From Alphaproteobacteria bacterium (GTDB lineage: Bacteria > Pseudomonadota > Alphaproteobacteria > Rhodobacterales > Rhodobacteraceae): DNA of 33,033 nt. This document shows, in pieces, positions 1,950-25,924 of the stretch (positions within the stretch are counted from its first letter, which is position 1; each line of letters opens with the position of its first letter). Both the position numbers and the translations under genes were made by a program. The stretch lies in assembly GCA_024280735.1 (NCBI GenBank), contig JAJRPO010000035.1:1-33033 (forward strand), given 5' to 3'. The notes under the pieces are model-generated. The model saw only the letters and a list, made by a program, of their open reading frames with translations, was not told the origin of the DNA and ran no database searches.

Positions 1950-3263
1950 TTGGAAACCTTCACCACCCAAATCACCCACTTCACCCAGAGCTTCCAAATC
2001 AGCACTGCACCGGCGTCCTGCCTGCATATCCTGAAACTGTCTTTGCTTGATTGGTGCGCGGTTGCCCTTGCGGGTGTTGGGGAGCCGGTCAGTCGAATTA
2101 CGCGTGATATGCTGAACAGTGAGGCAGGTACGCCGGAGGCATTTATATTTGGGCAGGCCACCCGATTGCCAGCCCGTGCAGCGGCACTGGCTAATGGCAC
2201 AACGTCACACGCGCTGGATTATGACGACACGCATTTTCTGCATATCGGCCACCCAAGTGTTGCGATCTTTCCGGCGGCCCTGGCGCTCGCAGAACGCCAA
2301 AATGCCAGCGGTGCCGATTTCCTGACAGCGGCCCTTGTGGGATATGAGGCATCGTGCCGGATTGGTCACTGGTTGGGGCGGTCGCATTACGAGGCTGGTT
2401 TTCACCAAACCGCCACGGCGGGGGCGTTTGGGGCCACGCTGACCGCCGCGCGTCTGTTGAAACTGCCTGCGGATCAAACCCGTCATGCGCTGGGCTTGGC
2501 GTGTACCCGTGTTTCCGGCCTCAAGGCGCAGTTTGGCACCATGGGTAAGCCGTTCAATGCGGGGATGGCCGCGAGCAATGGCGTAGAGGCGGCGCAGCTG
2601 GCCAGCCACGGGTTCATTTCCAATCCAGAGGCTTTGGAAACGGCCTTTGGGTTTGCGGATACGCATGCGGCAGCGCAAACTGATAGGGCAGAGGTGTTGC
2701 GAAGGTTGGGTCGTGACTTTGTGCTGGAGCAAGTGCAGCATAAATTTCACGCCTGTTGTCACGGGCTGCATGCGGCGTTGGAGGCTTTGCAAACTCTGGA
2801 AATATCCGATTTGAATGACATCATCAGCGTGACCGTTCACACGCATCCACGGTGGCTGAAGGTTTGCAATAAGCCTTCGCCAACGACTGGACTGGAAGCT
2901 AAGTTTAGCTATCGGCAAACCGTGGCGATGGCCCTTGCGGGGGTGAATACAGGGGCATTGCAAAGCTATAGCGACGCCATTTGTCAGATACCCGAAATAA
3001 AGGCGCTGCGTGAGAAGGTTCAGGTGGTTGGGGATGGCAGTTTGGCGGATACAGCTAGTCGGGTGGTTTTGGTTTTGAGTGGTGGTGATCGTCGTGAGGC
3101 CAGTTTTGATCTGACCAAACCAATGGTTGCCAGCGCGCGTGAGAAACGAGTGCGCGAAAAGGCTGCTGCATTGATTGGAAACGAAAAATCTACGGCTCTC
3201 TGGATGGAATTGGATAAGCTTGGTCAGGCCGCGTCGGTGCAGGGTTTGGTTGGTGCTTTGTAA
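1950..3263 (+). CDS. MmgE/PrpD family protein
   Basis: About 437 residues. The family signature is clear: LSLLDWCAVALAG near the N-terminus, then ANGTTSHALDYDDTH and HPSVAIFPAALAL, which match the N-terminal helical domain of 2-methylcitrate dehydratase/iminodisuccinate-type proteins. GLKAQFGTMGKPFNAGMAA is the typical loop before the second half. Substrate is not deducible because no methylcitrate-cycle genes are nearby. The start is uncertain: the frame is open from 1881 but contains no ATG before residue about 75 of that frame, only TTG codons at 1881, 1938 and 1950. TTG 1950 gives the usual N-terminal length. No strong ribosome binding site precedes any of them. Confidence 0.8.
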   Translation: METFTTQITHFTQSFQISTAPASCLHILKLSLLDWCAVALAGVGEPVSRITRDMLNSEAGTPEAFIFGQATRLPARAAALANGTTSHALDYDDTHFLHIGHPSVAIFPAALALAERQNASGADFLTAALVGYEASCRIGHWLGRSHYEAGFHQTATAGAFGATLTAARLLKLPADQTRHALGLACTRVSGLKAQFGTMGKPFNAGMAASNGVEAAQLASHGFISNPEALETAFGFADTHAAAQTDRAEVLRRLGRDFVLEQVQHKFHACCHGLHAALEALQTLEISDLNDIISVTVHTHPRWLKVCNKPSPTTGLEAKFSYRQTVAMALAGVNTGALQSYSDAICQIPEIKALREKVQVVGDGSLADTASRVVLVLSGGDRREASFDLTKPMVASAREKRVREKAAALIGNEKSTALWMELDKLGQAASVQGLVGAL

Positions 3264-3324
3264 CGCGCGGCGCTTTTGGCTTTTAAGCGGGGTTGGTGGT
3301 TGCTGTTGGGTATCCTCGTGTTTC

Positions 3325-4023
3325 TCAGCAGATGGCGTCTTGTGCTTTGTATGCGGTTAGGTTTTTATCTGCTTCGTCTTCAAAAACATCTTCGCCGAAT
3401 TCAACTGTCTGAATGCGATCGAGGCGAAAATTTCGAAAGTCATGCCGTTTTTCACACCAAGTTGCCAACAACCATATTGGGCTACAGAAAATCAATGCCA
3501 GCGGGCGCAGGGTGCGAAAGGTGTCTCGTTGCAATTCGTCGGTGTAGCGGATGTGGATTTTTCGCCGAACACGAATACATTCGCGCAGATCTGAAAAACT
3601 GACGGTCCAAGGTAACTCAGATTGATTTGGGCCAACCTGATTGGGAATCGAATAAGTTGTGATCTGCTCCAGCTCCCCCTGAAGGTTTGCCGGTAGAACG
3701 GCCTGAATTTTGTCAAAAGCACTGTCCGCTTTCTTGGCAAAACGGGCGTCTGTCCAATGCCGCACCATGCTGATACCAAGGCCGATGGCCTCCAGCTCTT
3801 CGGGATCAAAAGTAACAGGAGGCAGGTAGTAGTGTTTGTCGATCATGTAACCGACCCCTGCTTCACCACTGATTGGCGTGCCAGAATCCATTAAATCCTG
3901 AATGTCGCGGTAAACCGTGCGGGTGCAAATTTCAAATTCTTCGGCAATACGTCTGGCCGTTACCGCGCGGCGGCGACCCCGAATAAAGTGAACAATCCTG
4001 ATTAACCTGTCTGCTCGTCTCAT
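3325..4023 (-). CDS. YafY-type helix-turn-helix/WYL transcriptional regulator
   Basis: 232 residues. The N-terminus RADRLIRIVHFIRGRRRAVT followed by ARRIAEEFEICTRTVYRDI is the HTH_11 winged-helix domain of the YafY/DeoR-like family (residues about 4-60). GYMIDKHYYLPPVTFDPEEL follows, and the C-terminal part (about 135-225) resembles a WYL-type ligand-sensing domain. A GGAG ribosome binding site precedes the ATG. It is divergent from the RidA gene at 4141, and a perfect inverted repeat between them is a likely operator, so the simplest reading is a regulator of its own gene and ridA. The effector is unknown. Confidence 0.85.
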   Translation of the reverse strand: MRRADRLIRIVHFIRGRRRAVTARRIAEEFEICTRTVYRDIQDLMDSGTPISGEAGVGYMIDKHYYLPPVTFDPEELEAIGLGISMVRHWTDARFAKKADSAFDKIQAVLPANLQGELEQITTYSIPNQVGPNQSELPWTVSFSDLRECIRVRRKIHIRYTDELQRDTFRTLRPLALIFCSPIWLLATWCEKRHDFRNFRLDRIQTVEFGEDVFEDEADKNLTAYKAQDAIC

Positions 4024-4796: not shown

Positions 4797-6284
4797 ATGT
4801 TGAGAGCCGCACCAATCTTGCGAAACCTGATAACGCCCAAACCTGTTGCAACACAGACTTACGATGATGCGAGTGAGGCCGTGGCGGCGATTCTGCTGAT
4901 TTATCAGCAATCGACCTTGTTTCTACGGAAACATTTCACCCGATTTCAACAAGGCCTGAAACCGGAGGGGCATTACCGCGCCTTCTATCCTTTACTGTCA
5001 ATCACCACCTCGACTTTTTCCCAGATCGATACGCGGTTGTCCTTTGGGCATGTGCCGGAACCGGGCACTTACGCCACCACATTGACCCGCCCCGACCTGT
5101 TTGAGGGCTACTTGCACCAGCAAATCAGCCTGCTGCTCGATAATCACAAAGTGCCTATTTCGGTGGGTGTGTCCGATGTACCAATTCCATTGCATTTTGC
5201 GCTGGGCGAGGGGTTCACCTTGTCGGGCGGGGATGCATCGGTTCATGATCGGCCCTTGCGTGATATTTTCGATGTGCCGGATCTGAAAACGACCAACGAT
5301 GACATTGCCAATGGCGATGCCGAAGATGCGCCTGATGGCACGCGTCCATTGGCACCGTTCACGGCACAGCGGGTGGATTATTCACTGGCGCGTCTGTCGC
5401 ATTATACGGCCACCGCGCCGGAGCATTTTCAGAACCATGTGTTATTCACCAATTACCAGTTCTACATTGAGGAATTTATCAACTTTAGCAAAGAGCAGCT
5501 CGCGAACGGCGAGGGTGAGTATATCAGCTTTGTGTCGCCGGGGAATGTAATCACCACGGACGGAACAACCGACATCGACGCGCCGTTGAAGACGCCGCAG
5601 ATGCCTGCCTATCATCTGACCCGTGCCGACGGGTCGGGCATTACCATGGTGAATATCGGCGTGGGGCCGTCCAATGCGAAAACCGCCACAGACCATATTG
5701 CTGTGTTACGCCCCCATGCATGGCTGATGTTGGGCCATTGCGCCGGATTGCGCAACAGCCAGAACCTTGGGGATTTTGTGCTGGCCCATGCCTATGTGCG
5801 CGAAGACCATGTGCTGGATGCCGACCTGCCTGTATGGGTGCCAATCCCGCCCCTCGCCGAAGTCCAGATTGCACTAGAGCAAGCGGTGGCAGAGATTACT
5901 GGCCTGTCAGGCTATGAGCTGAAGCGCGTGATGCGGACCGGCACTGTCGCCACGATTGATAACCGAAATTGGGAATTGCGCGAACAATCCGGCCCCGTGC
6001 AACGCCTGTCAAAATCACGGGCTATTGCGCTCGATATGGAGAGCGCGACAATTGCCGCCAACGGGTTTCGATTTCGGGTGCCCTATGGCACGTTGTTGTG
6101 TGTATCGGACAAGCCGCTGCACGGAGAGTTGAAGTTGCCGGGAATGGCATCGGATTTTTACCAAACCCAAGTTTCACGCCATTTGAGGATTGGTATTCGC
6201 GCAATGGAGCATTTACGCGAAATGCCTTTGGAACGGTTGCATTCGCGTAAATTACGCAGCTTTGATGAAACCGCCTTCTTGTAG
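4797..6284 (+). CDS. amn: AMP nucleosidase
   Basis: 495 residues, close to the 480-500 expected. The N-terminal AMP nucleosidase domain (about 20-180) contains the TRPDLFEGYLHQQISLLL segment and VSDVPIPLHFAL. The C-terminal half is a purine-nucleoside-phosphorylase-like fold: VNIGVGPSNAKTATDHIAVL, WLMLGHCAGLRNSQNLGDFVL, AIALDMESATIAANGFRF and LLCVSDKPLHGELK. The Asp-Met-Glu-Ser segment carries the ribose-contacting Glu of this fold. It cleaves AMP to adenine and ribose 5-phosphate in the cytoplasm. A GAGG ribosome binding site lies upstream. About 260 bases between it and the RidA gene show nothing else recognisable. Confidence 0.9.
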   Translation: MLRAAPILRNLITPKPVATQTYDDASEAVAAILLIYQQSTLFLRKHFTRFQQGLKPEGHYRAFYPLLSITTSTFSQIDTRLSFGHVPEPGTYATTLTRPDLFEGYLHQQISLLLDNHKVPISVGVSDVPIPLHFALGEGFTLSGGDASVHDRPLRDIFDVPDLKTTNDDIANGDAEDAPDGTRPLAPFTAQRVDYSLARLSHYTATAPEHFQNHVLFTNYQFYIEEFINFSKEQLANGEGEYISFVSPGNVITTDGTTDIDAPLKTPQMPAYHLTRADGSGITMVNIGVGPSNAKTATDHIAVLRPHAWLMLGHCAGLRNSQNLGDFVLAHAYVREDHVLDADLPVWVPIPPLAEVQIALEQAVAEITGLSGYELKRVMRTGTVATIDNRNWELREQSGPVQRLSKSRAIALDMESATIAANGFRFRVPYGTLLCVSDKPLHGELKLPGMASDFYQTQVSRHLRIGIRAMEHLREMPLERLHSRKLRSFDETAFL

Positions 6285-7661: not shown

Positions 7662-8090
7662 TTACTCCAGAACTTCCTGTACGATGGTATCCAGCAAGGC
7701 TTGAACTTCCTTCATCGGGCCGTCGGGATAGATGCGATGCCCAACTTTAACGCCCTCCTCGTTTTCAAACACAAATACGGAATAGGGACAGTTGACCACG
7801 TTCAGCGGGTTCGCTTCCATCACTTTGCGCGACAAAACAGCAGAGCAGAACAGATAAATGTCAGCCGCCACAAAAATCTGCTTGGTGCCACCAACATCTG
7901 CCGCTGTGCGGTTCAACATTTCGCCGACATGGCTGACATAATCGATATTCAGGCCTTGGCCGATGATCGCACTTTCGGTTGCAAAGGTGGCATCTTCAAA
8001 ATCACCCTCAAAGGGGTAGGTTACCACGTCCTGCGCGGATACCTGTGCGGCGATGGTACAGAATATTGCGGTAATGAATGACTTGAACAT
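7662..8090 (-). CDS. DUF302 domain protein with signal peptide
   Basis: 142 residues. MFKSFITAIFCTIAAQVSAQD is a Sec signal peptide with cleavage near AQA/SAQ. The mature part contains FEGDFEDATFATESAIIGQGL, MLNRTAADVG, IFVAADIYLFCSAVLSRKV and NCPYSVFVFENEEG, matching the DUF302 fold. It has two Cys (in FCSA and NCPY). GAGGAG precedes the ATG. It follows the sulfur-oxidation cluster on the same strand, but the terminator at 8171-8198 separates it. Its role is unknown; a periplasmic accessory role in sulfur metabolism is only an inference from location. Confidence 0.75.
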   Translation of the reverse strand: MFKSFITAIFCTIAAQVSAQDVVTYPFEGDFEDATFATESAIIGQGLNIDYVSHVGEMLNRTAADVGGTKQIFVAADIYLFCSAVLSRKVMEANPLNVVNCPYSVFVFENEEGVKVGHRIYPDGPMKEVQALLDTIVQEVLE

Positions 8091-8215: not shown

Positions 8216-8671
8216 TTATTGCGACACGGATTTCAAATACTCAACCATGCCGTCGAGGTCTTTTTCCTTTAGGCCTTTAAAAGACATTTTGGTTTTATTA
8301 ACGAATTTCTTGGGGCTGGTTAGGAAGGTCCGCAGATTTTCCTCAGTCCAGACACCACCATCGGCAGCCAGTGCCAACATGCCTTTGGAATATTTATAGT
8401 CAGGTTTGGAACCCATTTCCGCGCCGTAAACACCGTTTAACATCGGGCCAACACCATTTTTGGCTTTGTCGCCAACTTTGTGACAGGCTTTGCATTTTTT
8501 AAAGGTCTTCTTACCCTTTTTTGCCAATGCTTCATCAATCATCACCGGGGCCATTTCTGCGACTGCCTCAGTTGCTTCTTCTGTGGTGGCAGCAGTTTCC
8601 GTGCCGGCCCAAACTGCGGTAGAGGAGGCCAAAAATCCGGCAATAACCATGGTGTTAAAAAACTTCGACAT
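8216..8671 (-). CDS. soxD: Monoheme c-type cytochrome, equivalent to SoxD C-terminal domain
   Basis: 151 residues from ATG 8671. The start is supported by AAGGAATC upstream and a complete signal peptide, MSKFFNTMVIAGFLASSTAVWA. After an acidic/Ala-rich linker there is one class I cytochrome domain: heme motif CKACH at residues 60-64, NGVGPMLNGVYG, and Met in KTKMSFKGL (about 129) as the likely distal ligand. In Paracoccus-type SoxD this domain is fused behind the domain encoded by the preceding gene, giving a diheme protein of about 380 residues. Here it is separate and has its own export signal. It probably completes the SoxCD sulfane dehydrogenase; an independent electron carrier is the alternative. 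Confidence 0.75.
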   Translation of the reverse strand: MSKFFNTMVIAGFLASSTAVWAGTETAATTEEATEAVAEMAPVMIDEALAKKGKKTFKKCKACHKVGDKAKNGVGPMLNGVYGAEMGSKPDYKYSKGMLALAADGGVWTEENLRTFLTSPKKFVNKTKMSFKGLKEKDLDGMVEYLKSVSQ

Positions 8672-8851
8672 TCTGTGATTCCTTGTTTGTTTTACGGCGT
8701 AATGGATAGCCGCCAGTTGTGAGGAGTCTTGCATGAAAGAATCCTTCGTGGGTTTTCTGCATTTAACAGTAGTTTGGGGCAATTGCGAATTGATACGGAT
8801 CACTTATCGGCTGTTTTGCGCGGTTTTGTCACGCAACCCCAACCAAGGGGA
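8672..8851 (-). other. 180-base spacer between the two soxD halves
   Basis: The first half ends with TGA at 8852-8854, and a second in-frame TAA lies at 8804-8806. The frame is then open through the downstream cytochrome, and includes an ATG with AAGGAT upstream near 8733, giving a 20-residue polar extension without signal character. The second gene is in the same frame as the first (distance divisible by three). No hairpin terminator was seen here, so co-transcription is likely. Confidence 0.5.
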
Positions 8852-9481
8852 TCATTCGGATTCCGTATTGCTGGCAGTATCCTTGATTGCCCGTCCGGTA
8901 ATTTGCACGGAGGGTTTGCAATCCGTCATGCAAACCCCGCGGCTAAAGGCCGGATATTCAGTATTGTCGCGATCATCTAGGCGAAAACTGCCGGTGTTTG
9001 GCAGGGCGATACTGGTGAAATTTTCCTTGTTCAGGATGAAATCCTCGTCCACGGCGTCGTTAAGATACAGGATATAGGCCACCAGTTGATACACCTCGTC
9101 GGGTGTCAGAGATTGCGCGTCGCCGTAAGGCATGGCGCGGAAAATGTAATCATAGGCGGTGGATAGATAGGGCCAATAGGAGCCGATGGTTTTGACGGGG
9201 CGTTCTTCGGCCAATGTGTCATGCCCCCCCGCGAGGGCGGGCCAGCGGCCCACGGCCTCGCCGAAATCACCGTGGCAGGCGGCGCATTGGTCGGTAAACA
9301 GCTCTTCGCCGTCAATGACAGAACCGGAGCCTGCGGGCAGGCCTTGGCCGTCGGGGCGCACATCGATATTCCAGGCGGCCACCTCGGCGGGTAGGGCTGC
9401 GCGCCCCAGGTTGAGCTTTCCAGCGGCGGCGGGGCTGGCCAGCAGTCCGGCGATGAGCAATGTTTTAAGAAATCTCGACAT
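8852..9481 (-). CDS. soxD: SoxD N-terminal cytochrome domain, stand-alone (sulfane dehydrogenase cytochrome subunit)
   Basis: 209 residues. Signal peptide MSRFLKTLLIAGLLASPAAA, then a SoxD-type domain: heme motif CAACH at 66-70 followed by GDFGEAVGRWPALAGG, VKTIGSYWPYLSTAYDYIFR, AMPYGDAQSLTPDEVYQL with the probable Met ligand, and a tail with the Cys pair of GVCMTDCK. This matches the N-terminal half of diheme SoxD, the partner of SoxC, which passes electrons from sulfane sulfur oxidation to small cytochromes. It overlaps soxC by 17 bases (translational coupling). The usual C-terminal heme domain is missing here and found in the next gene, so SoxD is split. Confidence 0.85.
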   Translation of the reverse strand: MSRFLKTLLIAGLLASPAAAGKLNLGRAALPAEVAAWNIDVRPDGQGLPAGSGSVIDGEELFTDQCAACHGDFGEAVGRWPALAGGHDTLAEERPVKTIGSYWPYLSTAYDYIFRAMPYGDAQSLTPDEVYQLVAYILYLNDAVDEDFILNKENFTSIALPNTGSFRLDDRDNTEYPAFSRGVCMTDCKPSVQITGRAIKDTASNTESE

Positions 9482-10715
9482 TATCGGTGATCCCTTCTGC
9501 GTTCACGGCCCAAGTCTGGATGCCGTTGTTGTGGTAGGTGGAACTCAGCCCGCGCAATTTGCGCAGGGCGTCCTTGGTGGGTTGGATGTACCCCGTGGAA
9601 TCATGCGCCCTGCTTTGTAACAACAGGGGTTTCCCGTCCCAGACAAAATCATAATAAAAGCGGTGCAGGGATTTATCTAAAGACAGCCCATCAATGCGCG
9701 CCTTGTGCCAGTTTACCCCGCCATCAAGGGTAATATCCACCTGTGGAATGGTGCCGTGGCCCGACCATGCCAGCCCGGTGATAACCGTCTGGCCCGGCCC
9801 GTGGGTGATCGGCATTTGTGGGCTTGGGCTGGTGATGACGGATTTTGCATCCATTTCCCAAGTGAAACGCCGAGAGGTGCCATCTGCCATCAGGTCGGTG
9901 TATTTCGAGGTCTCTTCGCGCTGATGCCAAGGCCTGTCGCCTATTTCCAAACGGCGCAGCCATTTGATCCAAGTGACGCCTTCCCAACCGGGCACCACAA
10001 GGCGCAAAGGGTAGCCGTTTTCCGGGCGCAAGGCCTCGCCGTTCATTTTGAAGGCAACGAGGCAATCATCCAACGCCTTTTCCATTGGGATCGAACGGGT
10101 GAGGCCACTGGAGTCCGCGCCTTCGGCTAGCAGCCAAGTGCCCGCAGTTTTCACGCCGGCCTCTTCTAGCAACAATCGCAGGGGGATGCCCGTATACATC
10201 ACATTGTGAATCATGCCGTGAGTGTATTGCACCCCGTCCATCTGTGGGCCGCGCCATTCCATACCCGAATTGGCAGAGCATTCCATGAAATAGACGTGAT
10301 TTTCGCGCGGGAAGCGCATCAGGTCTTGCATGGTGAAGATCAGCTCTTGCTCGACCAACCCGTTAATCATCAACCGATGATCCGCTGGATCATAGCGGGC
10401 AACGCCGCCATGGTGGCGCTCAAAGCAAACGGAGTTTGGGGTGATGATGCCGTCAAGTTGGTGGATTGGGGTGAAGTTGATCGCCGAAACCGAGTCAGCC
10501 GTTAGCCAAGGTACAGTCCGGCGGATCGTGTCAGATTCATAAGGGGAGGGCGCACCGTAAGGCATATGATTCACCCCATCGCCCAATTCTTGCGCCCACG
10601 GCTGAACATTGGTGATCAATGGGTCGCCTTCGGCACGCGCGCCTGTTCCAGCCAAGCCGGCGCTCGCGGCCATGCCTGCCTTGATGAAATTACGTCGGCT
10701 GGTTTTATCTGACAT
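9465..10715 (-). CDS. soxC: SoxC, molybdopterin subunit of sulfane dehydrogenase
   Basis: 416 residues starting MSDKTSRRNFIKAGMAASAG; ATG 10715 is preferred over TTG 10718 because of the GGGGG site upstream. The RRNFIKAG stretch is a twin-arginine signal, consistent with export of a folded molybdenum protein. The sulfite-oxidase fold is visible: VYFMECSANSGMEWRGPQ with the molybdenum-ligating Cys, LRLVVPGWEGVTWIKWLRRLEI, and a C-terminal dimerisation domain with ITGLAWSGHGTIPQVDITLDGG. With SoxD it removes six electrons from the protein-bound sulfane sulfur in the periplasm. It is separated from soxB by a hairpin and overlaps soxD. Confidence 0.95.
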   Translation of the reverse strand: MSDKTSRRNFIKAGMAASAGLAGTGARAEGDPLITNVQPWAQELGDGVNHMPYGAPSPYESDTIRRTVPWLTADSVSAINFTPIHQLDGIITPNSVCFERHHGGVARYDPADHRLMINGLVEQELIFTMQDLMRFPRENHVYFMECSANSGMEWRGPQMDGVQYTHGMIHNVMYTGIPLRLLLEEAGVKTAGTWLLAEGADSSGLTRSIPMEKALDDCLVAFKMNGEALRPENGYPLRLVVPGWEGVTWIKWLRRLEIGDRPWHQREETSKYTDLMADGTSRRFTWEMDAKSVITSPSPQMPITHGPGQTVITGLAWSGHGTIPQVDITLDGGVNWHKARIDGLSLDKSLHRFYYDFVWDGKPLLLQSRAHDSTGYIQPTKDALRKLRGLSSTYHNNGIQTWAVNAEGITDNVEIS

Positions 10716-10735
10716 CAATGCCCCCTGATACGAAA

Positions 10736-10762: not shown

Positions 10763-12457
10763 TTATCCAGTAATTACGTTCACTGATTTGTTTGGATCAA
10801 TGGTCACAGTGCCCTGCGATTTGATCCATTGCTCGGCCACGTCCCAGATTGGCGGCCCTTCAGTGCCCTCATTCACAGAAGCCCAGCCAGCAACCACATA
10901 GGTTTTGTCTGCCTCGATCTTTTCGCCTGTTTTCAGCAGGGTCATGTTCGTTAGACGGCTGCCTTGCGGCTTGTTGATGTCGATGGTGTAGCCCATGCCA
11001 CCCACACGCACCATGTCGCCACCTTGCTGATAATAGGGATCAGGATTGAACAGATTATCTGCCACATCTTCTAGAATGGTGTGGATCAGCTCACCTGTCA
11101 TTTCGGAACGGTAAGCATTTGGATAGCTCATGCCGGTGGCGTTAAACACATCTTCGCGGGTGATGTCGTCGCCGCCAATCAGGCTTGGCCCCCAACGGAA
11201 ACCGGGCGACAGGGCGATGTCGGCCTCGCGCACATCAATCAGCGCGTTACACAGCAGATCGTCCCATGTGCCGTTGAAGTTACCGCGACGATAGAGATCG
11301 TTGGAAGTCGTCCCCCAAACCTCCGCCAGATCAGCCTCAAACGGCGCACGTTGGTCGTTGATCAGTTGCGTCATCACCGGATCGGGGGTGATGACGTCAG
11401 AGAAGATCGGGATCAGTTTATGGGCAAAGCCTTTGACCTCGCCGTCCCGCACATCCAGATCAAGGCGGGTAATGTATTTGCCGTTGGAGCCGGAGGCGAT
11501 CAGCATGGTTTTATTGACCAACACAGGTTCGGGAATGGCGTCATGGGTATGGCCCGTCAGGATCACGTCGATGCCGTCCACATTGGCCGCAAGTTTGCGA
11601 TCCACGTCAAAACCGTTGTGCGACAGCAGAACCACCAGTTCCGCGCCCTCGACGGTGCGGACCATTTCCACCACTTCGCGCATGCGTTCTTGGCGTACAC
11701 CAAACGACAAGCCAGGGAACATCCAGCGCGGGTTGGCGATGGGCATGTAGGGGAATGCTTGGCCGATGATGGCGATTTTTACGCCGCCTGCCTCGACCAT
11801 TTTATACGGATCGTAGGCAGGTTCGTCCCACTCGTTGTCAAAAATATTGGCCCCGAGGAACGGAAAATCGAGCGTGTCGACGATCTCGTTGACGCGGTCA
11901 ATGCCCAAGGTGAATTCCCAATGGGAGGTCATGGCATCCGGTTTTAACGCGTTCATCACGTTGACCATATCCTGACCATTGGTCATTTGCGCGGTATAGG
12001 ACCCCTGCCATGTATCGCCGCCATCCAGCAGCAGTGCGTCAGGGCGATCGGCGCGGATAGAATTTACCACGGTTGAAACGCGGTCAAGGCCGCCCATTTT
12101 GCCGTAAGTTTTCGCCATATTGCCAAAATCAAGATAGCTCAGGGCGTAAGCCTCTGGGGTGCCGGGCGTCAAATTGAACATCTTCAGGAAATCGGCACCG
12201 GTAACGTGAGGTGGCAACCCAAGGGCACCGCCGACGCCGATGTTGACTTCCGGCTCGCGGAAATAAGTTGGCATCAGCTGGGCGTGAATATCAGTGATGT
12301 GGATCAGCGTGACGTTGCCGGTCTTGTTGAAATCTAGCAACTGTGCCTCTGTCATCGATTGCTGCGCTGTTGCGCGCGACAAGTTGCTAACACCGTAAGC
12401 TCCGAAAATTGCCGATGCAGCAACGGAAGCCTGAAGGAAATCACGACGAGAAATCAT
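10763..12457 (-). CDS. soxB: SoxB, dimanganese thiosulfohydrolase
   Basis: 564 residues, normal length. MISRRDFLQASVAASAIFGA is a twin-arginine signal. The metallophosphatase/5'-nucleotidase-type domain has its metal motifs in order: LIHITDIHAQL (about 53-63), LLLDGGDTWQGS, MTSHWEFTLG (replacing the GNHE of nucleotidases, typical of SoxB), VVLLSHNGFDVD and ILTGHTHDAIPEP. The C-terminal domain follows from about residue 370. In the periplasm it hydrolyses the terminal sulfate from SoxY-bound cysteine S-thiosulfonate. It is flanked by hairpins on both sides, which suggests that its transcript level is set separately from soxXYZA. Confidence 0.96.
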   Translation of the reverse strand: MISRRDFLQASVAASAIFGAYGVSNLSRATAQQSMTEAQLLDFNKTGNVTLIHITDIHAQLMPTYFREPEVNIGVGGALGLPPHVTGADFLKMFNLTPGTPEAYALSYLDFGNMAKTYGKMGGLDRVSTVVNSIRADRPDALLLDGGDTWQGSYTAQMTNGQDMVNVMNALKPDAMTSHWEFTLGIDRVNEIVDTLDFPFLGANIFDNEWDEPAYDPYKMVEAGGVKIAIIGQAFPYMPIANPRWMFPGLSFGVRQERMREVVEMVRTVEGAELVVLLSHNGFDVDRKLAANVDGIDVILTGHTHDAIPEPVLVNKTMLIASGSNGKYITRLDLDVRDGEVKGFAHKLIPIFSDVITPDPVMTQLINDQRAPFEADLAEVWGTTSNDLYRRGNFNGTWDDLLCNALIDVREADIALSPGFRWGPSLIGGDDITREDVFNATGMSYPNAYRSEMTGELIHTILEDVADNLFNPDPYYQQGGDMVRVGGMGYTIDINKPQGSRLTNMTLLKTGEKIEADKTYVVAGWASVNEGTEGPPIWDVAEQWIKSQGTVTIDPNKSVNVITG

Positions 12458-12513
12458 CTGCCTAACCCTTTCCGCAAAGATATGCGGGTATCTGAATGTG
12501 TGAGAAAAGAAAA

Positions 12514-12539
12514 ACCCCGCGCAACTGAATGCGCGGGGT
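12514..12539 (-). terminator. Strong terminator between soxA and soxB
   Basis: On the minus strand ACCCCGCGC, an eight-base loop and GCGCGGGGT are followed by TTTTCTTTTC. The 9-bp stem is perfect and GC-rich with a real U tract, 8 bases after the soxA stop and 57 bases before soxB. It is a textbook intrinsic terminator inside the sox cluster. Confidence 0.85.
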
Positions 12540-12547
12540 CAAATAGT

Positions 12548-13393
12548 TTAGTTACGAACGGAAGGTGATTCCACCGACAGGCCGTTGCCGCGAGAAGCGA
12601 CGTACAGTTCCAGCGCCTGGAATTCTGCGCTACCCGGCTTGTAAGGTTCTGCACGGATATTTTTCATGCAGCCTTTGAAACGGGCGTGGATGGAGTTCAT
12701 CTTGGCATTCTTCAAACGGTATGTCGGAAAGCCGTTGATCTGGCCTTGTGATAAGTGGTCCGCACGAATGTAAGCGCCGTAGTTGTCCTCGTGGCAGTTT
12801 GCGCAAGCCATATCCAGCTGGCCAACACGGGTATAGAAGATTTCTTTACCCTGCTCGTAAGCTTCAGCAACTGGACCGTCGGTCGCAACCGAAATCGGCA
12901 TGCCCCGTGATTGCAACGAGATCAGCGATGTCATGGCAGTCATGTTAGAGCCAGTCCATTTCCATTTGTCGGCGCCCATACGATCAACACGACAGTCGTT
13001 GATGTATTGCTCCATGGAATACAGCTTGCCCTTTGCTTCATTCCAACGGGGCAGGGTGGGGCGTAGGCCCGCAAATTCTGCAACGTCTTCGTGACAATTA
13101 GAGCAAGACTTGCCCTCGGAGCCATCAACCGCTGCAAACAAGGCTTCGCCATCTTCAACAAACACAAACGACGGGTTGTCGAAATCGTCTGTTTGCAAAG
13201 ACTGGGTTTCCTTGGAACGGAAACGCCAACCGGAAATCAGCTCGTCCAACGGGCCGCCCTCCATTGGTTTTGCGTCGGTTGAAATGGCTACGCCATCTAC
13301 GGATAGTTTGTGGTCATCGGCATCGGCAAATGCTGCCTGACCGAGGGACATTGCGACAAGGCCGCAAGCCACAGTGCTTAGTAGCTTCTTCAT
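12548..13393 (-). CDS. soxA: SoxA, diheme c-type cytochrome of the SoxXA complex
   Basis: 281 residues. ATG 13393 is chosen because GGGGAGGA lies directly upstream and it gives the signal peptide MKKLLSTVACGLVAMSLGQA; the frame runs 7 codons further up without support. Two heme motifs are present: CSNCH at 97-101 and CANCH at 197-201, so this is the diheme form. The catalytic cysteine persulfide ligand is in KGCMKNIRAEPY at Cys242, with the conserved RAEPY. With SoxX it joins thiosulfate oxidatively to the SoxY cysteine in the periplasm. It lies 21 bases after soxZ. Confidence 0.95.
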   Translation of the reverse strand: MKKLLSTVACGLVAMSLGQAAFADADDHKLSVDGVAISTDAKPMEGGPLDELISGWRFRSKETQSLQTDDFDNPSFVFVEDGEALFAAVDGSEGKSCSNCHEDVAEFAGLRPTLPRWNEAKGKLYSMEQYINDCRVDRMGADKWKWTGSNMTAMTSLISLQSRGMPISVATDGPVAEAYEQGKEIFYTRVGQLDMACANCHEDNYGAYIRADHLSQGQINGFPTYRLKNAKMNSIHARFKGCMKNIRAEPYKPGSAEFQALELYVASRGNGLSVESPSVRN

Positions 13394-13414
13394 ATTATTC
13401 CTCCCCAGGTTCAA

Positions 13415-13735
13415 CTAACCCACTTTGATGGTTTTGGTGGTTTCAGTGACAGTACCGTCATCATCAACCCATTTGAATGCCAGATCGCCGGTTTCGGGAA
13501 CTGTCATATCGAACTGGATGAACGGGTTTGTTGAAACAGCACCGTGCAAGTTCACGCTCATTACTTCGGTGCCATTAAATGTGGCCGAGAAGAAGTTGAT
13601 GATCTTGCGTGGGATCTTGTTGCCGTCTTTGTCTTTGCGCTGTCCTGATTCCATCTTGTGCTTGATCAGCGTTTTGATGGTCACTACGTCGCCTGCTGCC
13701 GCAGACTTCGGAACTTTTACACGAGGTTTACCCAT
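13415..13735 (-). CDS. soxZ: SoxZ, sulfur carrier complex subunit
   Basis: 106 residues, normal size. The immunoglobulin-like SoxZ fold is recognisable from PRVKVPKSAAAGDVVTIKTL, IKHKMESGQRKD, PRKIINFFSATFNGTEVMSV and the end LAFKWVDDDGTVTETTKTIK. It has no signal peptide, as expected for a protein exported together with SoxY by the Tat system. It pairs with SoxY and supports binding of the sulfur-loaded carrier arm by other Sox enzymes. AGGAG precedes the ATG; soxY lies 20 bases upstream. Confidence 0.96.
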   Translation of the reverse strand: MGKPRVKVPKSAAAGDVVTIKTLIKHKMESGQRKDKDGNKIPRKIINFFSATFNGTEVMSVNLHGAVSTNPFIQFDMTVPETGDLAFKWVDDDGTVTETTKTIKVG

Positions 13736-13755
13736 GGTATTCTCCTATTTCTGGT

Positions 13756-14184
13756 TTAGCCGCCGCAGCCGCCGATTGTTACTTTTACCGCTTTGGCAAC
13801 CTGTGTGAACGACCCATCAGCCATTTCAGCAATTGCCACAACGTCCTGCGTGCCGGCCAGTCGGATACGGGTAGAACCGTTACCTGCCGCCAATGCGCCG
13901 AAAGCGAAATCAGCTACATTAGGGTTTGGATTGCCGCTCGCGAGCAGGATAATGCGTTTTGCGCCCGGTGAGGACACGGCCACAGGAACAGTGTTGCCGT
14001 TTTCAGCAATTTCCGGTGTGGTTAATTCGATGCCACCCTCTGCAACGTCAGCACCACCGGTAAAGGCGGCTATTGCTGCTTTCATTACGTCTTCGCTTGC
14101 CGCTTGGGCAAAGCTGACGGGCACGAGTGTCACCGTCAAAGCTGCACCACCAAAGGCAAGCGCTTTTCTTCTGGAGATATTCAT
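13756..14184 (-). CDS. soxY: SoxY, sulfur-binding carrier protein
   Basis: 142 residues. MNISRRKALAFGGAALTVTL is a twin-arginine signal. The mature protein is a beta sandwich and ends in GGCGG with Cys140, the swinging-arm cysteine that carries the sulfur substrate through the Sox cycle. Pathway intermediates are covalently bound here while SoxXA, SoxB and SoxCD act in turn. GGGAG precedes the ATG. Only 12 bases separate it from soxX. Confidence 0.97.
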   Translation of the reverse strand: MNISRRKALAFGGAALTVTLVPVSFAQAASEDVMKAAIAAFTGGADVAEGGIELTTPEIAENGNTVPVAVSSPGAKRIILLASGNPNPNVADFAFGALAAGNGSTRIRLAGTQDVVAIAEMADGSFTQVAKAVKVTIGGCGG

Positions 14185-14196
14185 ATCTACTCCCTC

Positions 14197-14652
14197 TTAC
14201 TCTTTGAGTGTTTGCAAGTAAGCCAAAACATCTTCGAGCTGTGCAGCTGTCAGAATGGTTTTGCCTTGGAATTTTTTCATGGTCCGAACGCCATTCACCA
14301 AACGGTAGAATGATGGCATCATGGAATCATCGAAAGTCATTTTGGAATTCACCAGAATTCCGCGTAACTCTGCCTCATTCCAGCGCGATGCTGCGCCGTC
14401 AAGTGACGGGCCGATTTCGCCGTGGAATGATTGTTCTGTGGCGTCTGAGTTTACATGGCAAGCCAGGCAGTTGCCCAGTTTACGATTTACAAAAACAGAT
14501 TTGCCTTTTGCCGGATCACCCGGTGCTCCCGTCAACGAAGCTGAAACAACTCCGTCCTCCCCGAACATGACGCTATCTGGTGCAACTTCGGCCGCATTGA
14601 CCGCCGTTGCAAAGAAAGCGGCACCAATGGCTGCGATGGCTATGCTCCGCAT
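14197..14652 (-). CDS. soxX: SoxX, monoheme c-type cytochrome of the SoxXA complex
   Basis: 151 residues. Signal peptide MRSIAIAAIGAAFFATAVNA; heme motif CLACH at 62-66 in the family context KLGNCLACHVNSD; GPSLDGAASRW; Met ligand in NSKMTFDDSMMPSFY; C-terminal TAAQLEDVLAYLQTL. It takes electrons from SoxA during coupling of thiosulfate to SoxY. AGGGAGGAA precedes the ATG. It is the first gene of soxXYZA and follows a 114-base gap that probably contains a promoter. Confidence 0.95.
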   Translation of the reverse strand: MRSIAIAAIGAAFFATAVNAAEVAPDSVMFGEDGVVSASLTGAPGDPAKGKSVFVNRKLGNCLACHVNSDATEQSFHGEIGPSLDGAASRWNEAELRGILVNSKMTFDDSMMPSFYRLVNGVRTMKKFQGKTILTAAQLEDVLAYLQTLKE

Positions 14653-17175: not shown

Positions 17176-17677
17176 TGGTTGCGGATTCAGCCGATCAGCG
17201 CAACACCTGCTCTAACCTATGTGATGGGGACTGGAATCCCAAGGTTTTTCGTGGACGGCTATTAAGGTGCCGGGCAACGTCATCCAAGTCTTTTTGTGAG
17301 TAGCCTGCAAGGCAGGACCCCTTTGGGAAGTATTGCCGTAGAAGACCGTTGGTATTTTCATTGGTCCCGCGTTGCCAAGGACTGCTTGGGTCGCAGAAGT
17401 AGACGTCTATCTCCGTTGCAACGGTGAACTTTTGGTGTGCAGCTAACTCAGTGCCCCTGTCCCAAGTCAGGCTTTGTTTAAGCTGATCTGGCAGGCTGCC
17501 CATTTGACGTGCCAATGCTGGTACGACTTGTTCAGTCTTTTTACGGTCTAACTTTACCAGCATCGTAAATCGGGTCTGACGCTCCACAATCGTGGCGATA
17601 TAGCTGTTTTTTGAGCCACAAATCAAATCGCCTTCCCAATGTCCTGGGACAGCACGATCTTCAACGTTTGCGGGGGA
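17176..17677 (-). mobile_element. Truncated IS30-family element
   Basis: An IS30-type transposase tail with its terminal region. The 3' end lies near 17176-17194, where the broken M24 frame stops. The 5' side ends near 17677, where the transposase frame changes to a LysR reading frame on the other strand. The N-terminal HTH half and the left inverted repeat are missing, so the copy is not mobile by itself. Confidence 0.65.
17195..17677 (-). pseudogene. IS30 transposase, 5'-truncated
   Basis: About 160 residues of the C-terminal catalytic part, ending at TGA 17195. Readable motifs are VEDRAVPGHWEGDLI, the first catalytic Asp region; IATIVERQTRFTMLV; LTWDRGTELAAHQ with the second Asp; and DPSSPWQRGTNENTNGLLRQYFPKG with the catalytic Glu, all characteristic of the IS30 DDE core. 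Full-length proteins have about 320-390 residues; the first half is absent and there is a stop codon at 17678-17680 in frame. Confidence 0.8.
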
Positions 17678-24247: not shown

Positions 24248-25924
24248 TTATTGCGTCAGCTTGAGTTTCTGGATCGACGCGGCGATCTGGGCGAACACAG
24301 TCGAAATTTGCACGCCGTTAGCGTCATAGTAGTGGCTGCTTGAACTTGCACAGGCCGCCAGCTTGGCAGATGTTGAACTGCTGGTTTCAAACCCGATGGT
24401 GTAGACAACCAATCCGGCGTTGCGGGCCGCGGTGCAAGTTGCCGCCATTGCGGTGTCTGCTTCATTGGACGTTCTGCCTGTGCCCCAAACAAGGTCGCTA
24501 AAAGAATCTTCGCCAGTCCGACCATCATACCATTGCGCCGGCATTAGGCCCCAAGCCTTGTCCCATGTCAGTTGAGTGGAACTCACCCAGCCATCCATTG
24601 TAGTATTCAAGCTGTTGAATTCACCATTGGAAATCCAGTTATTATTCTCGATGTCATAATAGTTGTTGTTTGAAGGTCTGTGCAGGAAGTAAGTCGATTT
24701 TTCCACACCTGGTTTATAAAAACAGATCCAATTATTTTTGCTGCACTTAGCCTCGCTGGTCGAGGTTTTATGCGCCTTTTTCTTGTGTTGGGCGTACCAG
24801 AACACTTGCTCTGCTGATACCACTTCCCATAGGTCTGAATTATCGCCTTGATAATCTGGCCCCATACGGAACTCATAGGTATTGGCACCGTCGCCCATCA
24901 TAATAATAACCTTAAGGGTATCAAAATCGGAATATTGGGCGGGAACATTGACAAAACCTGCATCAACTTCCAACGCGGTTATCAAGTCAGCAGTGACGGG
25001 TTGGAAAGAAGGGTCAAGCATTGCTGCGCCCCATTTGATTCCGAGATGACCAGCGGTCCAACCATCAGCCACAAGAGAGTCAATCTTGGTGTGCAGCGCA
25101 GCTTCGTTGTCCGAGTATGGCATAATTGTAAAGTATTCATCAGTGTAGCATGTGCGCGAAGATTGGTCCAAGTTATCAGTGTCGGCCCATGTCCAGCCAC
25201 CATAAAGAGAGGTGTAGATCAATTGCGACTGTTCTACACTGGGATCAATACTCACGTTGTTAAAATCGTCATCAGCAAAATCCAGGCAGGTTGAATAATC
25301 TTGGCGATCATCAACGGTCAAGGCGTTGTACATGCCCTCTGAAGGTGCAACCGAATTGTTGAAGGGGATGACTGAAATGGCGACATAATCGTCGTCAACA
25401 TCGGTCAGCATGGTTGTGATAAACTCTTTCGCTGCGACCTTTAGGTTGGTCAGCTTGTTGTTAGACCCCATGGATCCGGACACATCCAATACCAACGAGA
25501 TTTCCAGCTTGGGAATACGTTCCTCTGCGGCGCTGGTAACGGTGATCGGCATGCTTTCGATGCCCGCCATGCTCATAAACATTGTATTGAGGTTTGCGGT
25601 GGCCGTCGCGGATACAGTCCGAAAGTTCAAACCAGTGTCGTAAACCGTCGCGACCGAAATTTCCTCAATCGCGGAAACTTTGCTCATGTAGTCGTTAACA
25701 ACGTCGTCCGGCACCTTTGTTTGCTTAAGTGACGCTGCCGCAAGAACCGCGCGGTCAAGGTTGTATTGCATCGTTGCGCGCAATGTTTCGTGCCGTGACA
25801 GGTCAATGGCTGTGCCGCCGACAAAAACAATTGTCATGAAAACAACGAGGATGAAAACCAGGATTGACCCGCCTTCGTCCTTGTTGAACTGATTTACACC
25901 GATTTTACTCATCGCTCGTTTCAT
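24248..25924 (-). CDS. TadG-like protein with von Willebrand factor A domain
   Basis: 558 residues from ATG 25924, supported by AAGGGG upstream. FNKDEGGSILVFILVVFMTI followed by a short hydrophobic stretch (about 19-40) is the TadG N-terminal anchor (TadE/Flp_N type). The main part is a vWA domain starting IPKLEISLVLDVSGSMGSNN; Asp147, Ser149 and Ser151 form the metal-ion site. A long insertion (about 260-460) rich in Asn, Asp and Trp separates it from the C-terminal AAMAATCTAARNAGLVVYTIGFE, which has the last vWA strands. It may act in pilus-linked adhesion. First gene of the trio. Confidence 0.85.
   Translation of the reverse strand: MKRAMSKIGVNQFNKDEGGSILVFILVVFMTIVFVGGTAIDLSRHETLRATMQYNLDRAVLAAASLKQTKVPDDVVNDYMSKVSAIEEISVATVYDTGLNFRTVSATATANLNTMFMSMAGIESMPITVTSAAEERIPKLEISLVLDVSGSMGSNNKLTNLKVAAKEFITTMLTDVDDDYVAISVIPFNNSVAPSEGMYNALTVDDRQDYSTCLDFADDDFNNVSIDPSVEQSQLIYTSLYGGWTWADTDNLDQSSRTCYTDEYFTIMPYSDNEAALHTKIDSLVADGWTAGHLGIKWGAAMLDPSFQPVTADLITALEVDAGFVNVPAQYSDFDTLKVIIMMGDGANTYEFRMGPDYQGDNSDLWEVVSAEQVFWYAQHKKKAHKTSTSEAKCSKNNWICFYKPGVEKSTYFLHRPSNNNYYDIENNNWISNGEFNSLNTTMDGWVSSTQLTWDKAWGLMPAQWYDGRTGEDSFSDLVWGTGRTSNEADTAMAATCTAARNAGLVVYTIGFETSSSTSAKLAACASSSSHYYDANGVQISTVFAQIAASIQKLKLTQ

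Follow-up and report, generated by a model that had tools for sequence, protein, structure and literature searches.

The sulfane dehydrogenase SoxCD of the Paracoccus pantotrophus type contains a fused diheme SoxD, in which both heme domains are present in one protein and soxC overlaps soxD. The second SoxD heme of Paracoccus is reportedly dispensable for catalysis, as the title of a 2005 study by Bardischewsky and co-workers has it. A shorter SoxD, found mostly in Hyphomicrobiales and in some Rhodobacterales, stops after the first heme domain (heme-1), and SoxE is a diheme cytochrome encoded downstream of soxD whose N-terminal domain resembles the free cytochrome D2 described here. Outside the Sox system, genes are known to split by duplication and partial degeneration, monkey-king being a case.

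The locus in our study shares something with each of these and differs from each. It keeps soxC overlapping soxD and both heme domains of the fused type, whereas these are distributed over two genes for two predicted exported proteins, D1 and D2. Its SoxD stops after heme-1, like the short form, but the 23 heme-1-only loci (best 80 of 394 relatives) are not followed, in the 1.6 to 6 kb examined downstream, by a one-heme gene bearing a soxC fossil. SoxE, on the other hand, has two hemes and a distinct second half, and the copy in this genome lies elsewhere. Complementary loss after duplication would be common to this case and the known fissions, while here the protein is bacterial and exported, and the signal peptide of the second half seems to have come with a copied gene junction that holds a fossil of the neighbouring gene.

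The window, i.e. the whole stretch of 33,033 nucleotides analysed, belongs to a draft genome which is 71% complete and consists of 88 contigs. The relevant features, all on the minus strand, are the following.

9465..10718 (-): soxC, molybdoprotein subunit of sulfane dehydrogenase (TIGR04555, 605.5 bits, cut-off 420)
8852..9481 (-): D1, SoxD heme-1 half with signal-like leader (209 aa, one CxxCH)
8672..8851 (-): D1-D2 gap, 180 nt
8790..8802 (-): FNR/CRP-type site TGATCCGTATCAA (sequence pattern TGAYN4ATCAA)
8761..8766 (-): possible -10 hexamer TTAAAT, 23 nt past the FNR-type site (4/6 to TATAAT)
8611..8675 (-), equal to 24359-24423 of the reverse strand: D2 start matching the soxC-soxD junction profile (18.2 bits, E 1.9e-4 in 1.29 Mb)
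8655..8672 (-): putative SoxC C-terminal fossil NVEVF*, out of frame in the D2 leader
8216..8671 (-): D2, probable SoxD heme-2 half, a free monoheme cytochrome c with signal-like leader (151 aa, one CxxCH)
7662..8090 (-): DUF302-like protein with signal-like leader, 3' of D2 (PF03625, 22.6 bits, just under the cut-off of 23)

The two monoheme reading frames proposed in the first-pass annotation were recovered at the same positions, and each begins with a leader which, judged by eye, is signal-like, in keeping with the signal peptides assigned to both halves. The final 17 nt of soxC overlap the start of D1. The D1 and D2 start codons are 810 nt apart and therefore share one frame, which is interrupted by TGA and then by an in-frame TAA. 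Upstream, at 10763-14652 of the minus strand, further sox genes run X, Y, Z, A, B, C; X, A and C were assigned by models and Y, Z and B by eye. An open reading frame at 17195-17626 adjoining the sox cluster resembles, by eye, part of an IS30-type transposase. The DUF302-like gene is also found 3' of D2 in two other loci (L028 and L029).

D1 is readily recognized as the first half of SoxD. Its residues 22-200 match chain 2xts_B, from what is presumably the SoxCD structure, with an E value of 5e-72 and ungapped over 179 residues. With its 205 residues the chain is too small to accommodate both heme domains, and being of heme-1 size it indicates that a heme-1 domain can sit with SoxC alone. The second heme domain of the Paracoccus type is absent from the D1 chain, which has one CxxCH and then a stop, heme-2 being a separate gene. 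D1 was described earlier as ending where the linker would begin, and this agrees with the fused relatives, which run on into the linker at that point. The size of 2xts_B, together with the reported dispensability of heme-2, suggests that D1 alone should pair with SoxC, encoded immediately upstream of it; hence D1 most likely serves SoxC.

The same split arrangement was found in three other genomes of the genus, G010 (locus L028), G015 (L029) and G029 (L004/L163), with 64-78% identity to the window for D1 and 60-69% for D2. L028 and L029 share their D1 starts exactly with G010 and G015, respectively. A SoxD heme-1 match is present in 17 of the 33 genomes of the genus; four of these (the window genome, G000, and the three just named) are split, and the other 13 carry both hemes in one frame, the instance in G019 being spread over two contigs. 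This answers the comparison of split and fused soxD in relatives suggested earlier. The D1-D2 gap measures 180 nt in the window, 303 nt in G010, 304 nt in G015 and 308 nt in G029. In the window and G010 the two halves share a frame, whereas in G015 and G029 their frames differ, so that the earlier argument from a shared frame holds for the first pair of genomes and fails for the second.

A scan of named genomes gave 394 confirmed relatives, of which the best 80 were taken further. Among these 80 loci, 54 encode both hemes in a single frame and 25 have one heme, while one (L085) stops at a contig end. L028 and L029 are the split loci among the 25, and the other 23 are heme-1 only; downstream of these 23, in the 1.6 to 6 kb examined, there was no one-heme gene with a soxC fossil. 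In the family, 257 of 394 genomes had a SoxD match at E 0.001 or better, some of them weak. Among the matches listed, all ten with an open frame of less than 300 aa were heme-1 only, and D2 was not found in the 2.5 to 2.9 kb downstream of them. Loss of the covalent second heme is thus common (23 of the best 80 of 394; all ten short listed frames), and among the loci examined this small clade of marine bacteria was alone in retaining heme-2 as a neighbouring gene whose start resembles that of soxD. A search for D2 on plasmids gave 343 matching records, none of which covers 80% of D2 and all of which are under 60% identity. No split SoxD appeared in the titles and abstract openings of the SoxD literature searched, which lay mostly outside subscription journals.

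Several other arrangements were noticed around soxD. In the Rhizobiales loci L098 and L103, heme-1-only SoxD is accompanied by a c2-like one-heme gene with another leader, 1.8 and 2.3 kb downstream (at about 8367 in L098), possibly an independent route to a separate second heme. In L073, L098 and L103 soxD is directly followed by a small gene that resembles the SoxE tail. In Marivivens niveibacter (L052), the region of soxD and soxE seems to have been rearranged in yet another way: the soxD at 6001, of 305 residues from the match, has its heme-1 and linker followed by a SoxE-like heme at the C-terminus (YGEYLSGDCTSCHQ). In G022 (L013), at the end of the frame 1408-2331, a fused soxD is broken past the second heme motif, by mutation or assembly error.

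The start of D2 carries the most informative evidence. Local alignment of leader DNA from -40 to +69 scored 67 between D1 and D2 in the window, 38 in G010, 60 in G015 and 56 in G029, while other signal-like leaders scored about 20 on average against D2. The number of 355 such leaders reaching the D1 score was 0, 2, 0 and 0, respectively, which bears out the likeness of the two leaders noted at first. These background leaders were chosen by a simple custom rule and some of their loci are near-copies; the full set of 356 contains one soxD (L078), which is left out of the 355. The coding part considered alone was equalled by 0, 3, 1 and 0 of 356 leaders in the same order. The upstream 40 nt alone were equalled by 0 of 356 in the window and in G015, but by 156 in G010 and 17 in G029; the likeness reported earlier for the ribosome-binding region therefore stands for the first two genomes and is weak in the other two.

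The nature of the likeness becomes clear from the gene overlap. Since soxD begins inside the end of soxC, the last SoxC residues, NVEVS or NVEIS, can be read from the soxD start in a different frame. An out-of-frame NVE[VI] was found in all four D2 leaders, in 66 of 75 soxD leaders (own D1 excluded) and in none of the 355 others. The D2 leaders keep it though D2 has no soxC in front. In addition, the codons ATGTCGAAG open 30 of the 75 soxD leaders and none of the 355 others. A profile was made from 69 soxC-soxD junctions (-330 to +75), with the D1 of the window, L028 and L029 included and no D2. Over 1,288,621 bases it gave 149 hits of at least 40 bits and four between 12 and 40 bits, every one of the latter being a D2 start: L028 with 26.2 bits, the window with 18.2, L163 with 18.0 and L029 with 17.0 (E 7e-7 to 4.5e-4). 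The start of D2 as a decayed copy of the soxC-soxD junction is therein strongly supported.

In G010 the copy may be longer. The junction match there starts about 140 nt ahead of D2, in register with soxC and with the start codon, and the putative decayed soxC copy reads LLQNWAHVSMRYVQLT where the SoxC of the window has LLQSRAHDSTGYIQPT. Upstream of -20 the profile match by itself scores 5.2 bits, while the best of 200 shuffles gives 3.4, and direct alignment to soxC scores 35, which is reached by none of 300 shuffles. In the window, G015 and G029, the upstream-only profile gave no hit, and the direct upstream soxC alignments were equalled by 80, 155 and 50 of 300 shuffles, respectively. When the gaps were compared with longer soxC 3' ends, the scores were reached by 31 (window), 13 (G010), 180 (G015) and 164 (G029) of 200 shuffles. 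A protein profile of the SoxC C-terminus run on the gaps in six frames gave a best E value of 0.45, in G010 and in the frame of the NVEVS fossil. The evidence for a soxC copy extending about 140 nt upstream, seen in G010 alone, is good but not overwhelming.

These observations are probably best explained by fission of soxD through duplication of a segment bearing the junction, followed by separation of D1 and D2. A segment with the soxC 3' end and at least the soxD start would have been duplicated; the first copy would end after the heme-1 domain, giving D1, and in the second the duplicated leader would be joined to the heme-2 domain, giving D2. With that leader D2 would inherit both its ribosome-binding site and its signal peptide, which would allow it to be exported alone. 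The duplication of the soxD 5' end proposed in the first-pass annotation is upheld, with the copied piece enlarged to include the end of soxC. An exported protein cannot merely be cut in two, since the second half would have no signal peptide. The split soxD appears to preserve the workaround in its DNA, in that the copied junction came from overlapping genes, whose overlap persists as a fossil readable out of frame. If true, the junction copy is a readable record of how the second half gained its signal peptide during bacterial gene fission.

How much was copied can be weighed from the gaps. The leader region alone may have been copied into the soxD linker, no longer unit of soxC 3' end and soxD being involved, and we regard this as a serious possibility that falls somewhat short of probable. 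The profile match in the window, G015 and G029 spans the leader and no more than about 3 to 35 nt ahead of it, and comparison of the D1-D2 gaps with the fused SoxD of L007 and L008 gave no clear linker or heme-2 remnant after D1 (scores equalled by 25 to 193 of 200 shuffles), so that duplication of a whole soxD is not demonstrated. The match reaching into soxC in G010, however, implies that the copied piece there exceeded the leader. Tandem duplication of soxC 3' end and soxD with complementary loss, and copying of the leader only, are equally likely routes. An ordinary fused soxD broken by a sequencing or assembly error is hardly conceivable, in spite of the draft state of the genome and the shared frame of the halves in the window: the split recurs in three other genomes, in two of them with the halves in different frames, and each D2 starts with a leader of its own that contains the soxC fossil. 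A sequencing frameshift is ruled out by these three relatives, and a single uninterrupted soxD frame, which would have spoken against the split, was not encountered there.

The remaining alternative concerns the descent of D2, which may instead be a shortened SoxE or some other small cytochrome c placed on a copied soxD leader after SoxD had lost heme-2. SoxE N-terminal domains are similar to D2 and adjoin soxD in many relatives, and the Rhizobiales loci L098 and L103 do combine a heme-1-only SoxD with a separate c2-like gene. D2 matches class I cytochromes c. In a blastp comparison with the rows of the tree set, each D2 has SoxD C-terminal domains as its first 23 to 32 hits, the best being the C-termini of fused same-genus relatives at 63-68% identity. 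Its nearest relatives are thus not the unrelated cytochromes c outside sox clusters that had been named as a possible counter-finding. In a heme-2 tree of 108 rows, which leaves out the heme-1 domains L073, L082, L087, L096 and L100, a branch (93/77) separates the four D2 from the other rows, and they nest in a seven-row group with the fused SoxD of G009, G024 and L030 (94/92). In a reduced tree of 54 rows, which also leaves out L012 and L047, the four-way D2 clade has a support of 79/41. AU tests leave a placement of D2 on the SoxE side unrejected (p 0.37 with the 108-row set, 0.12 and 0.25 with the 54-row set; the domain has 110 columns). Against a SoxE origin of D2, the window genome retains a SoxE-like diheme gene on contig C12, away from the sox cluster, which branches with SoxE (L165, G000:C12:3500-9500, ORF 2982-3683). 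A SoxE or c2 origin is disfavoured by the best hits and the heme-2 tree and appears improbable; by best hits, tree and position, the identification of D2 as the SoxD heme-2 domain is supported.

A combined tree of SoxC and D1 was also considered in this respect. From 136 rows found, 124 had soxC and 112 remained after removal of near-copies; L022, L023 and duplicate loci are excluded, and L085 is labelled one-heme though its contig ends inside the gene. The four split loci form one side of a branch (SH-aLRT 99). The rows nearest to them are L012 and L047 (support 61), which are fused with a divergent C-terminus, and a nine-row group (98) adds L065 and L094, which are heme-1 only, and L085. The presence of heme-1-only SoxD near the split clade is in favour of a SoxE-derived D2. 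The next larger group of 15 rows (87) brings in fused genus rows and L039, so that the nearest lineage with an ordinary heme-2 includes fused same-genus rows, in agreement with the D2 tree. The divergent heme-2 of the fused SoxD in L012 (G035) and L047 (Marinosulfonomonas) fell on the SoxE side in a quick tree.

Taking D2 as the SoxD heme-2 domain, a working electron path can be proposed. D1 would remain with SoxC and accept electrons from the Mo centre, and D2, as a free periplasmic monoheme cytochrome, would hand on to the respiratory chain the electrons that it receives from D1 or from other donors; a role as diffusible electron shuttle is most likely. Export of both proteins and this path are inferred from the sequences. 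D2 seems to be a maintained gene: between G015 and G029 its dN is 0.108 and dS 0.73, and the low ratio in this one pair fits such a view; the corresponding D1 values are 0.114 and 1.24, and in deeper D1 and D2 pairs dS is saturated or not computable. The split soxD hence offers a natural experiment on the purpose of the second SoxD heme.

D2 may also have its own oxygen-linked promoter, which we offer as a lead. The pattern TGAYN4ATCAA, picked after the sequences were seen, occurs in all four D1-D2 gaps with its centre 36-58 nt past the D1 stop; across loci L028-L107 (930,653 bases) there are 57 instances, or 0.06 per kb. The whole window has one match against 0.68 expected by chance, so that the case for a promoter lies in the site recurring in the four gaps, in genomes that are related. 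In three of the four gaps a -10-like hexamer (4 or 5 of 6 positions) stands 22-23 nt past the site, and hexamers with at least 4 positions occur at 13 of 73 other sites. The sequence TTGAT-N4-ATCAA is given as the Fnr site, and reported to lie before napD of Dinoroseobacter shibae, in an earlier study (PMC5398030); its first T is not conserved at the sites in the D1-D2 gaps. An extended reading, in which D2 is an independently exported shuttle under FnrL control, low oxygen shifts the exit of Sox electrons with SoxCD itself unchanged, and the fossil records the gain of the signal peptide, is tentative and rather unlikely as a whole. Twelve CRP-family loci from six genomes, which take in part of the matches in G015 and G029, include FnrL-like proteins bearing the Cys pattern in G000, G010, G006 and G009.
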